Shown piece by piece: positions 3,891 to 64,000 of a stretch of DNA of 64,000 nucleotides; within the stretch, counting starts at the first letter, position 1, and each line of letters opens with the position of its first letter. The stretch spans positions 310,001 through 374,000 of the forward strand of contig JAQXDE010000055.1 in the NCBI GenBank assembly GCA_029251525.1, written 5' to 3'. Position numbers and translations under genes: made by a program. Origin of the DNA: Saprospiraceae bacterium (GTDB lineage Bacteria > Bacteroidota > Bacteroidia > Chitinophagales > Saprospiraceae). The notes beneath the pieces were generated by a model. It saw only the letters and a list, made by a program, of their open reading frames with translations, ran no database searches and was not told the DNA's origin.

Positions 3891-4904
3891 ATGAGAAAAA
3901 CGATACAGGATCAACTTTTTGAAGACGTACTTGCCAAATTTCCGAAAAAATCAATTGCCGTAGAGGAACTCACTGAGCTATTTGGTGTTGGAAAGGATGC
4001 TGTATACCGTCGCTTAAGAGGGGATACTTTATTGGCTCCTGAGGAATTAGCTGCTCTTGCACAAAAATTTAACTTGTCTCTAGATTCCTACGTTTTTGAA
4101 GATGCGAACACTGTTTTTTGTAGTTTTAATCCTTTTACTAAAGAAATAAAAAATGTTTCTGATTACTTGGAAGGTATTCATAAGTTAATGGGTAAAGTGC
4201 AACACTTACCTAATACGAGTATGCATTATGCGACTTCGGATGTTCCGTTGTTCGTCTATTTTTATTTCCCTGAAATATTACAATTCAAAATTTATATTTG
4301 GGGGCGAGCGGTTTGGATGTTTGACTATTTGGATGATATGAAATTTAACTTCAATGTAATCGGGCCACATGGAATGGAGATGGCTCAAGATATGTTGAAA
4401 TATTACGTAAAACTTCCCAGTACAGAATTGTGGAGTACTGACATTTTAGATAACACATTAAATCAAATTGAGTATCATGTGAATAGTGGTCATTTTTCTA
4501 ATTTAGAGGATGCTATGATACTTTGTCAAAGATTGAACGAGTTGGCGGATCATATGGAGACAACAGCGAAGTTAGGGTATAAATTTTTGCCAAGTCAATC
4601 GCAAGAAATAAAAGGTGGGGAAATCAAATTATATCATAATGAGATGGTTTACTCCAACAATACCATTCTCTTTGATACCGTTGCTGGCAAAGCGGTCTAT
4701 TCGAGTTATACCAATCCTAATTTTTTAAAAATCAACGATCAGCGTATGTGTGATTTTACTCATTCGTTTTTTGAAAAGATCAGGTCAAAGTCTATTTTAA
4801 TGAGTGTGCAAGGGGAGAAACAACGATCTTGGTACTTTAATCGAATGAGGAGAAAAATAGAATTGACTCGAACGCGGATTACTTTGCAAATGGAAACGTT
4901 CTAA
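3891..4904 (+). CDS. Helix-turn-helix regulator, N-terminal HTH with unknown sensor domain
   Basis: 337 aa. Residues about 20-68 form an HTH: VEELTELFGVGKDAVYRRL, followed by a helix EELAALAQKFNLSLD resembling XRE-type regulators. The remaining 270 residues contain no family I can name. They have no membrane segment, many aromatic residues, and a charged C-terminus (SWYFNRMRRKIELTRTR). It is probably a cytoplasmic transcription factor. The gene stands alone between a divergent DUF1573/DsbA operon and an Omp85-like gene that has its own promoter. The target and any ligand are unknown. Confidence 0.7.
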   Translation: MRKTIQDQLFEDVLAKFPKKSIAVEELTELFGVGKDAVYRRLRGDTLLAPEELAALAQKFNLSLDSYVFEDANTVFCSFNPFTKEIKNVSDYLEGIHKLMGKVQHLPNTSMHYATSDVPLFVYFYFPEILQFKIYIWGRAVWMFDYLDDMKFNFNVIGPHGMEMAQDMLKYYVKLPSTELWSTDILDNTLNQIEYHVNSGHFSNLEDAMILCQRLNELADHMETTAKLGYKFLPSQSQEIKGGEIKLYHNEMVYSNNTILFDTVAGKAVYSSYTNPNFLKINDQRMCDFTHSFFEKIRSKSILMSVQGEKQRSWYFNRMRRKIELTRTRITLQMETF

Positions 4905-60288: not shown

Positions 60289-61326
60289 ATGAAAAGGTTA
60301 CTCATACTTGCCTGCTTGGTTTTACTTTTTTCATGTCAAAATGAATTTCAAGGTTCAGCGTCTAAATTTTTAAAAATTAAAGGAGAAACGATGGGGACGA
60401 CTTATCATATTACTTACGAAGATGAGTTGGGGCGTAATTTTAAGAATGAAATAGATATAATTTTATTAAAGTTAAATCAATCGGTTTCAACTTATATTCC
60501 TGATTCAGAGATCTCGAAGTTTAACCAAAATAAAGAAATAAATACATTTGATAGGTATTTTCGAGATGTAACTCTAGCATCACAAAAAATATTTGAAGAG
60601 ACTGATGGGTTATTTGATCCAACTGTTATGCCTTTGGTGAATTATTGGGGGTTTGGATACACGGAAAAAAAAGCAATTACAGACATTGATAGTTTTAGAG
60701 TTGATTCGTTAAAAAAATTAGTTGGTTTTGAAAAAATTAAAATCAATTGTGATAAAACTAATCTTGGTTTAATTTGTAGTTTCTCAAAAAACAATCCAAA
60801 TATCCAACTTGATTATTCTGCGATTGCAAAAGGTTATGGAGTAGATATTGTCGCTAATTTTTTTCAGGAAAAAAAAATAAAAAATTTTCTTGTAGAAATT
60901 GGCGGTGAACTTAGAACGTCAGGCAAAAATTCCAAGAAAAAGATATGGACTACCGCAATCAATACTCCAAAAATCAATGCTCAGCTTAACGAGTACGAAG
61001 CCATTATTAAAGTATTTAATAAAGGTATCGCTACCTCAGGTAACTATCGAAATTTTTACGAGGCTAATGGTGAATGGTATGGTCATGAGATAAATCCAAA
61101 AACAGGCTTTCCTGAAAAAAGTAATTTACTCAGCGTCACCATTATGGCTGATGATTGCATGAGTGCTGACGCTTATGCGACAGCCATGATGGTTATGGGA
61201 TTGGAAAAATCAAAAGCGTTAGCAGCAAAAGTCGAAAATATAGATGCCTTTTTTATTTTTGCTAATGAAATTGGTAAGTTAGAAACTTTTTATACGAAAG
61301 GGTTTGAAGGGATAATTTTAGAATAA
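60289..61326 (+). CDS. apbE: FAD:protein FMN transferase (ApbE), lipoprotein
   Basis: 345 aa. Lipobox LLFSC (Cys16). Family motifs: GETMGTTYHI near 31, DYSAIAKGYGVD near 182, VEIGGELRTSGKN, then ATSGNYRNFY, HEINPKTGFP and MSADAYATAMMVMG with the Mg/FAD-site Asp. Attaches FMN to Thr residues of flavoproteins such as NqrB/C or RnfG in the periplasm. The flavoprotein partner is outside the window. Own promoter; the exonuclease gene follows after 26 nt. Confidence 0.95.
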   Translation: MKRLLILACLVLLFSCQNEFQGSASKFLKIKGETMGTTYHITYEDELGRNFKNEIDIILLKLNQSVSTYIPDSEISKFNQNKEINTFDRYFRDVTLASQKIFEETDGLFDPTVMPLVNYWGFGYTEKKAITDIDSFRVDSLKKLVGFEKIKINCDKTNLGLICSFSKNNPNIQLDYSAIAKGYGVDIVANFFQEKKIKNFLVEIGGELRTSGKNSKKKIWTTAINTPKINAQLNEYEAIIKVFNKGIATSGNYRNFYEANGEWYGHEINPKTGFPEKSNLLSVTIMADDCMSADAYATAMMVMGLEKSKALAAKVENIDAFFIFANEIGKLETFYTKGFEGIILE

Positions 61327-61352: not shown

Positions 61353-62162
61353 ATGGATTTTAAATTAGAGAGAGATCTTTGCTTTTTTGATATTGAGTCA
61401 ACTGGGCTAAATGTAGTGAGAGATAGAATAGTGCAAATTGCTATTATTAAATATCACAAAAACAGAGTTGAACCCGAAGAGTTGGAGATGATGATTAACC
61501 CTGGTATTCCGATTTCGGAGGAGGCAATGAATGTTCACGGTATCACACCAAAGATGTTATCAAACAAACCTTCTTTCCAACAAGTTTCTGACCAATTGCT
61601 TAAATTTATTGGAGACTCTGATTTAGCTGGTTATAATTCTAATCGTTTTGATGTACCGATGTTGATGGAAGAATTTTCAAGAGTAGGTATTGAACTTGAC
61701 ATGTCTCGACGAAGAACGATTGATGTCCAACGAATTTTTTACAAAATGGAACCTCGAACCCTAAGTGCTGCTTTAAAATATTACACGGGTAAGAAAATTG
61801 AAAATGCACACGATGCTCTTTCTGATGTTCGTGCAACAATTGATGTGTTAAAAGGGCAATTGGAAAGATATCAAGACGTTGATTTAGAGGATGGAGACGG
61901 CAATATTATTGAAAGGCCGGTTCAAAATGATATGAAAGCATTACATGAATTCACAACTGATGATAAAATGATAGATGCAACTATGCGATTAAAATATAAC
62001 CATGAAGGAGTAATCGTTTTTAACTTTGGAAAATATCAGGGACAGCACGCAGCTAAAGTTTTGAAAAATGACAAGGCTTATTATAACTGGATTTTGAATA
62101 AGGAATTTTCAAGTCAGGTTAAACAACTAGTTAAAAAATTAGTGAAGGATTATGGAAAATAA
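61353..62162 (+). CDS. DnaQ-like 3'-5' exonuclease
   Basis: 269 aa. All five DEDDh residues are present: FDIESTGL (Asp13, Glu15), NRFDVPML (Asp100), and HDALSDVRAT (His153, Asp158). A C-terminal segment (about 225-258; FNFGKYQGQ, then YYNWIL) resembles the C-terminal domain of ExoX-type exonucleases, so it is more likely an independent repair or end-trimming nuclease than a polymerase III epsilon subunit. Probably co-transcribed with apbE. Confidence 0.9.
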   Translation: MDFKLERDLCFFDIESTGLNVVRDRIVQIAIIKYHKNRVEPEELEMMINPGIPISEEAMNVHGITPKMLSNKPSFQQVSDQLLKFIGDSDLAGYNSNRFDVPMLMEEFSRVGIELDMSRRRTIDVQRIFYKMEPRTLSAALKYYTGKKIENAHDALSDVRATIDVLKGQLERYQDVDLEDGDGNIIERPVQNDMKALHEFTTDDKMIDATMRLKYNHEGVIVFNFGKYQGQHAAKVLKNDKAYYNWILNKEFSSQVKQLVKKLVKDYGK

Positions 62163-62213: not shown

Positions 62214-63110
62214 ATGAATTCTAGAAATTCTCAAAAACTTATAGATATCCTAAAACTTTTATTTTTTCAGTTATCATTCATTGTTTTGCTTGGTAGCTGT
62301 TATACGCCAATTGATGGATGCTTAAATATCGATGCTACAAATTATGATGCTTCTGCAGATGAACCTTGTGATGACTGTTGCGTCTTTCCAAATTTAAATT
62401 TGAAAATTACTCACAGTGTTACAATAAAAGGGGCATTTGGACAAGATTCTGTGATAAATCATTCTGCTGATTCTACGTTTAGTAACTTCAATGATAACTT
62501 TTTTCAAATAAAAGGAATTGAGTTTTATTTATCTGATTTTCAGTTGGTCTTAATGGACGGAAGTATCGCAGAAGTAGAAGATGAAATGACTTTTATGATT
62601 TATGAAAGTGGGGCATCTCAAACTTCTAAAGATACCACTGTTAAGGATGATTTTGTATTGGTTTCACGAAGTTCTTTTAATTATACTATTGGTGAGTTTC
62701 GAAATCCTGGGACCTTCATGGAATTAAGGTTTTCAGTAGGAATAGATGAAGGGTTAAGTTCCATCAATTCAGATACCTTGGCAGATACACACCCTTTGAG
62801 TAGTGAAAATATGATGTGTTTTGGAACTCGAGATTCGGGATTCGTTTATCAAGAATTCTCTCTGGTAAAAGATACATTGACGAATCCAACTGAGGTAGAA
62901 GTTTTTCAGATGGGAAAAGAAATAGCTAATTCAGTTCAAGTGATCCTTCCTTTATTTGGGGTTTTAGAACCGGGGTTTGATTCAGAAATTCCATTAAAAG
63001 TAAACTATACAAAATGGCTTAAAGGCATAGATTTTACGACAAATGATGTGGAGACTATAAAGTCTAAGATTGTCAGTAATACGGCAGAGGCATTTGAAAT
63101 TGGGGAATAA
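62214..63110 (+). CDS. MbnP-like lipoprotein with altered tryptophan site
   Basis: 298 aa. Lipoprotein signal ending VLLGSC (Cys29), then a cysteine-rich stretch (DEPCDDCC near 53-60). The body resembles MbnP-family proteins: FFQIKGIEFYLSDFQLV, the GTFMELRFSVGID strand, and DTHPL. After HPL, where MbnP has a short tryptophan-rich segment, this protein has MMCFGTRDSGFVY with no tryptophan. It may bind metal differently or be non-functional as an MbnP. Directly followed by a second, canonical-looking copy. Confidence 0.65.
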   Translation: MNSRNSQKLIDILKLLFFQLSFIVLLGSCYTPIDGCLNIDATNYDASADEPCDDCCVFPNLNLKITHSVTIKGAFGQDSVINHSADSTFSNFNDNFFQIKGIEFYLSDFQLVLMDGSIAEVEDEMTFMIYESGASQTSKDTTVKDDFVLVSRSSFNYTIGEFRNPGTFMELRFSVGIDEGLSSINSDTLADTHPLSSENMMCFGTRDSGFVYQEFSLVKDTLTNPTEVEVFQMGKEIANSVQVILPLFGVLEPGFDSEIPLKVNYTKWLKGIDFTTNDVETIKSKIVSNTAEAFEIGE

Positions 63111-63243
63111 TTGATGAAAGTCATCAATATTTTCATCAGTATCAAAAACTCAAAGAGGCTTTTTTTCGTTAGGTAGGTGTGATTTATGATATTTCTTTAC
63201 TCTAAAGAAATCAATCCATCATTATTGGTAAAAATAAATTCTT

Positions 63244-64000
63244 ATGAAAAAAATATTTTGGTTTACTTTATTTACTTCATTTTTATTATTTCAAAACTCT
63301 TGTAGGCCAGACCCTACACTGGAGGAGACAAGTGATGTTGAGTTGATATTTAAAGGTAAATACGCTGATGAAGTTCTGATGATCAATAATGATTATGATT
63401 ATGATGGAAATCCTATTAGATTTGATCAGTTTAATTTTTACATTTCGAATGTTGTTTTGGTTAAAGATATAGTTGGGAATCCAGAAGAAACTGAATTGTT
63501 TGAAATTAATTTTGTTGACTTGAGTTTCAAGCCAGTTGATGTTGAAGATGCGACAAAAGGGGTTGTGATAACTGCTCCTAATATTCCTGTAGGAGAGTAT
63601 TCAGGTATTAAGATAAATATAGGAGTTGCCCCAGATTTGAATATTACTAGCTGGGAGGATTACGGTAGTGGTCATCCACTAAGAAAGGCAGGTCATTACT
63701 GGTCTGCTTGGAACAGCTTTATTTTTTCCAAAACCGAAGCTAAGATTGATATAGATTCTGATGGGACATTTTCTCATAAATTAGCTTACCACACAGGATC
63801 AGATGAGGCTTATCGGACCAAGTTTTTTGCTAAAAATATTATATTGGAAAATGGAACAACCTCCAAGATCTCATTTAATGTTGATGCAAAAAGGATTTTT
63901 GAGGATATAAATGTGATGACTCAAACTGGGACTCATAATATAAATGATATGGTCTTGGTGAATGAAATTATGGACAATTTGCAACAAAAATCTTTAGAAA
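63244..64000 (+). CDS. MbnP-like lipoprotein, cut by window end
   Basis: At least 252 codons, open to the window edge. Lipobox LLFQNSC (Cys20). MbnP-family features: FDQFNFYISNVVLV near 60, VPVG-like NIPVGEYSGIKINIG, then GHPL at 143-146, HYWSAWN at 151-157 with two tryptophans, FIFSKTEAKID, and YHTGSD with His183. In characterised MbnP a tryptophan is oxidised to kynurenine by the dihaem partner MbnH and helps bind copper. A MbnH/MauG-like cytochrome c peroxidase gene would be expected just downstream, outside the window. Confidence 0.75.
   Translation, partial: MKKIFWFTLFTSFLLFQNSCRPDPTLEETSDVELIFKGKYADEVLMINNDYDYDGNPIRFDQFNFYISNVVLVKDIVGNPEETELFEINFVDLSFKPVDVEDATKGVVITAPNIPVGEYSGIKINIGVAPDLNITSWEDYGSGHPLRKAGHYWSAWNSFIFSKTEAKIDIDSDGTFSHKLAYHTGSDEAYRTKFFAKNIILENGTTSKISFNVDAKRIFEDINVMTQTGTHNINDMVLVNEIMDNLQQKSLE

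Follow-up and report, generated by a model that had tools for sequence, protein, structure and literature searches.

A Trp-poor MbnP-fold paralogue retained beside a putative MbnP/MbnH-type pair in a Saprospiraceae bacterium and its relatives

The window analysed here is a stretch of 64,000 nucleotides (positions 310001-374000 of its contig) from a Saprospiraceae bacterium with a genome of 5.25 Mb. Two adjacent genes at its end, referred to below as A and B, are the subject of this report; their features and upstream neighbours are collected in Table 1. In the genome the stop codon of B ends 11 bases past the window, so that the complete protein has 255 aa. A 369-aa di-haem protein, H, is encoded next and begins 29 bases after B (B ends at L002:4011 and H starts at 4041).

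Table 1. Features of the locus in window coordinates
Feature	Position	Strand	Size or basis
Upstream neighbour, ApbE family protein, not thought mechanistic	60289..61326	+	PF02424, 266.6 bits
Upstream neighbour, RNase_T/ExoX-like exonuclease, not thought mechanistic	61353..62162	+	PF00929, 109.9 bits
ORF A, MbnP-fold probable lipoprotein without the Trp and His of the MbnP site	62214..63110	+	298 aa
Cys29 of A, probable lipidated Cys	62298..62300	+	Cys in 91/92 non-redundant A
N-terminal Cys collar of A (Cys36, Cys52, Cys55, Cys56)	62319..62381	+	A alignment
Degenerate site of A, Asn199-Phe210 with Met200, Met201, Cys202	62808..62843	+	alignment
ORF B, MbnP-family probable lipoprotein keeping the first Trp and the His	63244..64000, open at window end	+	PF20243
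Trp153 of B, candidate for oxidation to kynurenine	63700..63702	+	W in 66/69 non-redundant B
His183 of B, candidate metal ligand	63790..63792	+	H in 66/69 B vs 3/92 A

Both proteins belong to the Pfam family PF20243 (MbnP), with 51.9 bits for A and 86.8 bits for B at a curated cut-off of 27; both miss the 140-bit cut-off of the NCBIfam equivalog model TIGR04052 (13.8 and 27.6 bits, respectively). The AlphaFold models have a pLDDT of 89.1 for A and 92.2 for the 252 in-window residues of B, and for each of them MbnP (7l6g) is the sole PDB entry at E<=0.001 (Z 15.6 over 201 residues for A, 16.9 over 207 residues for B). PDB sequence searches with the single proteins or with a B profile gave no MbnP match, in contrast to the profile built from Trp-bearing MbnP (E 5e-5). 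A hydrophobic N-terminal stretch followed by Cys is found in 91 of the 92 non-redundant A, and the Cys after this stretch is invariant in both B alignments; these N-termini are compatible with putative lipoproteins. The remaining A row, which for the same reason gives no reading at Cys36, Cys52, Cys55 and Cys56, is L176, whose N-terminus was trimmed by the script; the longer reading of L176 has the motif.

The best PDB sequence match of H is 6e1c, entitled 'Di-heme enzyme' (160.9 bits), which we take to be MbnH; the best MauG entry scores 101.6. The best NCBIfam model is likewise that of the MbnH family, TIGR04039 (259.5 bits, against 174.8 for the MauG model). The translation contains two CxxCH motifs and matches the di-haem CCP/MauG domain PF03150 at 184 bits. 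A preliminary description of the window, made from its letters, had proposed two adjacent MbnP-like lipoproteins and had set beforehand, as a check, the presence of a dihaem MauG/MbnH-like gene past position 64000; the pair and the gene are both there. H also matches cytochrome c peroxidases (4aal, 137.9 bits) and misses the TIGR04039 equivalog cut-off of 362.85 bits. It may thus be an ordinary di-haem peroxidase, with the Trp of B never oxidised and the neighbours sharing regulation only; since the MbnH-type matches outrank both the peroxidase and the MauG ones, we regard this as unlikely, and return to it with the genome survey.

The tryptophan site was compared in an alignment of 105 A, 83 B and 42 other MbnP, where the last set includes two more proteins from the window's genome, the rest lying outside the A/B loci and mostly in other families of the class. 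Assignment of the rows to A or B followed their HMM scores; it was made within the window's family only and used models that include the site columns. We excluded two A that are defective or partial (L104, L106), together with duplicate rows for L016, L017 and L018; at <90% identity, 92 A, 69 B and 40 other MbnP remain as non-redundant rows. Through the Trp-bearing MbnP profile the site columns align with GMAWNWQAG and VHVG of 7l6g, and the column of Trp153 is the one aligning to the first Trp of WNW via profile A6.

The first-Trp column holds W in 66/69 B and 37/40 other MbnP versus 11/92 A; W occurs anywhere in the site segment in 14/92 A and in all 40 other MbnP. For the His of (F/Y)HxG the counts are 66/69 B, 34/40 other MbnP and 3/92 A. 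In the window, A has Gln232 in the place of this His, and its Met200-Met201 are followed by Cys202-Phe203-Gly204, with Gly204 in the first-Trp column. The site is thus not dead in every A: 11/92 keep the Trp, and in one of these (L047) a His stands in the adjacent column. When all rows are counted, the second Trp of WxW is found in 0/105 A, 9/83 B and 34/42 other MbnP, and a Met preceding the first Trp in 33/105, 1/83 and 28/42, respectively.

The preliminary description thus reads the window copy of A correctly, as lacking the Trp and having Cys and Met in its place. Its proposal that these residues form a different metal site fails, because Cys202 occurs in one of the 105 aligned A; in this region one genome of the same genus reads Leu-Met-Tyr-Phe and another Glu-Arg-His-Phe. 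For the second copy, described as keeping a Trp-rich HYWSAWN site, the sequence is as given and Trp153 is canonical; the motif is WSAW rather than WxW, with Ala155 at the second-Trp position, so that the first Trp alone stands in the canonical place. In the work of Manesis from 2021, kynurenine reportedly forms from the first Trp of WxW in MbnP, and His and Met are said to bind Cu(I). A B protein which keeps the first Trp and loses the second would agree with this chemistry; if the Met before the Trp is a ligand, the ligand set of B must differ.

We also considered a strict complementarity of the two proteins, with a strand-1 His only in A, the Trp and His only in B, and one site shared between them. 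The strand-1 His is present in 63/92 A and in only 11/40 other MbnP; it is therefore no general ligand, which weakens the idea.

The best-conserved part of A in the non-redundant alignment is the N-terminal Cys collar. Cys36 and Cys56 are each present in 91/92 A, the remaining row being trimmed; Cys52 and Cys55 occur as a pair in 84 rows and are jointly missing in 7; neither is ever found without the other, and the trimmed row makes up the rest. No motif related to the collar was found in the 83 B rows; a loose pattern finds a related two-Cys motif in 15/42 other MbnP of the class. For any metal bound by A, this collar would be the conserved candidate, and A would then be a second, chemically different carrier beside B. 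Its strong conservation is what such a carrier would show. However, the joint loss of Cys52 and Cys55, never of one alone, is expected of a disulfide rather than of a metal site, and the related motif in other MbnP suggests a structural element. We presume that the collar forms two disulfides and consider a metal site of its own in A distinctly unlikely.

A faulty duplicate on its way to loss would be another simple explanation of the missing site. In the window's genus A indeed changes faster than B (53% versus 64% identity to a second genome), and 19 of the 199 genomes surveyed have no A match. Yet A is under purifying selection, with a dN/dS of about 0.1: against the nearest genome of the genus the values are 0.10 for A, 0.07 for B and 0.08 for H (177 H codons being available), all of them rough because dS is already 1.4 in this pair, and other unsaturated pairs give 0.04-0.23 for A. 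For some pairs in other parts of the family, A is conserved at least as well as B. Together with the nearly invariant collar and the presence of A in 180/199 genomes and 105/112 genera, this largely refutes the decay of A, which we hold to be highly improbable.

The survey covered 199 genomes of the window's family, with thresholds of E<=1e-20 for A, E<=1e-25 for B and E<=1e-80 for H. B and H were each found in 179/199 genomes, and all three genes in 160/199, which bears out the proposal of a module outside methanotrophs. A single-sequence search with A at 1e-3 gave 181/199 genomes; G075, with a weak match in that search, is counted as lacking A. Further loci (35, referred to as named) were found by the pattern CYEPxEGCL, which selects the first part of the A N-terminus. 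Their titles give Saprospiraceae or Saprospirales in 26 cases, Phaeodactylibacter or Lewinella in 4, Bacteroidetes or Bacteroidota only in 4, and Chitinophagales in 1. According to the NCBI taxonomy, Phaeodactylibacter and Lewinella belong to two other families of the order Saprospirales, and the A protein of one genome of the window's family (G020) is the same as that of a Phaeodactylibacter record in 290/290 residues. The window's family of genomes presumably corresponds to the order Saprospirales.

In the class as a whole, A profile matches are found in 206/295 genomes, many of the listed ones being partial or generic MbnP; about 45 of the listed loci were inspected, and all MbnP aligned from them have Trp in the site segment. 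Within the compared MbnP sets the Trp-poor condition is seen in A alone.

The order of the genes is well kept. B follows A in 30/30 best-scoring family loci (H is visible in 26/30 short flanks) and in 32/35 named loci. H is present in 32/35 of the latter and was not seen in L085, L090 and L099, of which L099 lies at a contig end. Among 40 weaker-scoring loci (of 181 genomes), 17 have A and then B, including L168 with a gap of about 0.7 kb between them; 10 have A and H with no B between; and 13 have neither, including L149 at a contig end. The three sets share organisms in part; with B after A at these frequencies (30/30, 32/35, 17/40), the pairing is not due to chance. Where B is missing beside A, it was found elsewhere in the genome in 2 of the 3 genomes tried, and H likewise in 2 of 2.

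The losses of the genes are not independent. B and H are jointly missing in 12/199 genomes (20 lack B and 20 lack H; about 2 are expected; Fisher p 2e-9), A and B in 6 (p 0.006), and A and H in 7 (p 0.0008); among the 158 more complete genomes the counts are 9 (p 4e-9), 4 (p 0.03) and 3 (p 0.05), respectively, the strength of all these associations being inflated by the shared ancestry of the genomes. The co-loss of B and H fits an enzyme and its substrate. Since these two are lost together far more often than A is lost with either, A appears to be semi-independent, a looser third part. Nor need A accompany the other two: 7/199 genomes have A but neither B nor H, and 11/199 have B and H but no A, which counts against the reading favoured below. 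Its persistence without the other two in a few genomes implies that A may have an independent function, and this would also suit A as a metal carrier in its own right.

The co-loss, together with the retention of the Trp in nearly all B, also argues against H as an ordinary peroxidase. The exceptions are of interest in this respect. In one genome (G164, loci L208 and L205) the B beside A has Leu instead of the Trp and no H in the next 4 kb, and a second, Trp-bearing B adjoins H on another contig, which again speaks against an ordinary peroxidase. On the other hand, in two loci of one genus (L156, L171) H follows a B which lacks both the Trp and the His. H therefore need not act on its neighbour; one of these genomes (G195) has an intact B elsewhere.

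The origin of the tandem was addressed with a quick tree built without the Trp segment from 94 rows (30 of the 105 A, 24 of the 83 B and 40 of the 42 other MbnP); its branches are long, and it leaves the sister group of A and the history of the Trp (lost once and regained, or lost repeatedly) without resolution. In this tree the A rows group as a single clade (SH-aLRT 98), and 23 of the 24 B as a second one (99). B groups with the second-position genes of seven MbnP-MbnP tandems from outside the family and with one single gene (SH-aLRT 98); H follows five of these seven second-position genes in the stretch taken. In these tandems both MbnP have Trp in the site segment. Because B clusters with second-position genes from outside the family, the tandem with a B-type second gene is probably older than the family.

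As to the surroundings, clusters related to the neighbours of the window copy recur at the 35 named loci: the ExoX-like exonuclease at 23, ApbE at 13 and TerC at 11. In two other genomes (L115, L116) H stands directly before genes of an ApbE and an ExoX-like exonuclease, by eye the same two. None of the three terminator-like sites of the region (1.8 expected) falls between A and B, and the fold of this intergenic stretch is ordinary (z -0.87). The distance from A to B, measured to the Cys, exceeds that from B to H in 43/53 loci; we draw no conclusion from the distances alone.

The window's genome holds two further MbnP/MbnH-type loci with canonical WxW, L016:3827-5529 (-) and L017:8359-11508 (+), where the motifs read MYWTW and MHWGW; the second of these MbnP bears a T9SS sorting tail, and two H genes come after it. 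Small proteins with C-x-M-H-C are encoded just before the MbnP gene of L017 (L017:7926-8288) and about 12 kb after H (L002:16811-17107); judged by eye, they are presumably heavy-metal-binding.

The nature of the metal deserves separate consideration. Directly beside the window copy no copper genes were recognised by eye. Of 22 loci taken as B away from A, four also hold A (L194, L197, L199, L201); in the other 18 the gene preceding B belongs to a HupE/UreJ_2 cluster in 4, a MerC cluster in 3 and a Fur cluster in 2, each cluster being named by the Pfam match of one member. Two separate B copies (L113, L114) are found in what look like metal operons, together with MerC and HupE/UreJ_2 genes; one has a Fur-type gene in addition and one DUF6702. 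Such neighbours of separate B copies imply that the metal may not be copper, and the module could handle zinc, nickel or cobalt, for example. MbnP, in contrast, binds copper. The measured relatives CorA and MopE are described as copper-binding in PMC3912023, which also reports a copper site with kynurenine in CorA, and PMC9426467 places MbnP/MbnH pairs in copper operons. We therefore give a metal other than copper limited credence.

Taking the evidence together, we lean towards an envelope module A-B-H in which B and H form an MbnP/MbnH-type pair, and A is a site-poor paralogue kept as an accessory; we hold this somewhat more probable than not. H, as a di-haem MbnH-like enzyme, would oxidise Trp153 of B to kynurenine, after which B would hold a metal ion, most likely Cu(I), by means of His183 and further ligands. 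A would be an MbnP-fold paralogue whose oxidisable Trp and His have disappeared from most members, including the window copy, and which may be retained as a non-catalytic accessory lipoprotein, i.e., an adapter, a docking protein or a hand-over partner. Its conserved feature would then be the disulfide-type collar beside the lipid anchor.

It is tempting to go further and to see in A a 'pseudo-MbnP' without the kynurenine site, a new kind of component which arose in this family from one of the copies of an ancestral MbnP. Through its Cys-collared N-terminus it would position the true MbnP and the haem enzyme, receive from them or regulate them. We offer this as a tentative and rather doubtful extension of the accessory role; if it is true, the MbnP/MbnH pair is a three-part system in the window's family.

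What we believe to be new is an MbnP paralogue that is Trp-poor, carries a Cys collar, is maintained by selection across the family and stands next to an MbnP/MbnH-type pair which apparently works. The retention of A despite the loss of its site hints at an unrecognised helper role. To our knowledge, kynurenine-dependent metal sites have been measured in only a few methanotroph proteins. The genes described here provide a natural comparison, in about 100 genera, of neighbouring proteins that share one fold but differ in the Trp, and the natural losses of the Trp in B, with and without an adjoining H, can be compared likewise. With such comparisons one can test which residues are required by the di-haem enzyme, and what purpose an MbnP without the site serves.

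Among the known systems closest to this locus is MbnP of Methylosinus trichosporium (7l6g). It shares the fold of A and B; its first Trp and the His of VHVG fall in the columns of Trp153 and His183 of B, as aligned via the Trp-bearing profile; and like B it is encoded beside an MbnH-like gene. In contrast to it, B is without the second Trp of WxW and has no Met ahead of the first; A has neither of the two Trp nor the His, and carries the N-terminal Cys collar in addition; and two MbnP-fold genes stand here ahead of one H. Among the matches listed in the literature search a Trp-less tandem MbnP was absent. The MbnP-MbnP tandems from outside the family similarly have two MbnP in a row, the second grouping with B; unlike A, both of their MbnP keep the Trp.

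The other pairs of a kynurenine-copper surface protein with a di-haem peroxidase, CorA/CorB and MopE/SACCP, as presented in PMC3912023 and PMC3621798, resemble B and H in arrangement. PMC3621798 states that the MbnP sequence has no marked similarity to MopE or CorA, and neither appears in the PDB match lists of our searches with A, B or the profiles; it also notes that MbnP/MbnH pairs are spread far beyond the producers of methanobactin. As for H, the closest relative by sequence is MbnH (6e1c, TIGR04039), with which it has in common the two CxxCH motifs and a neighbour of the MbnP family; it differs in staying below the equivalog cut-off (259.5 of 362.85 bits) and in that two di-haem genes stand in tandem after B in 14 of the 35 named loci (L078-L112).
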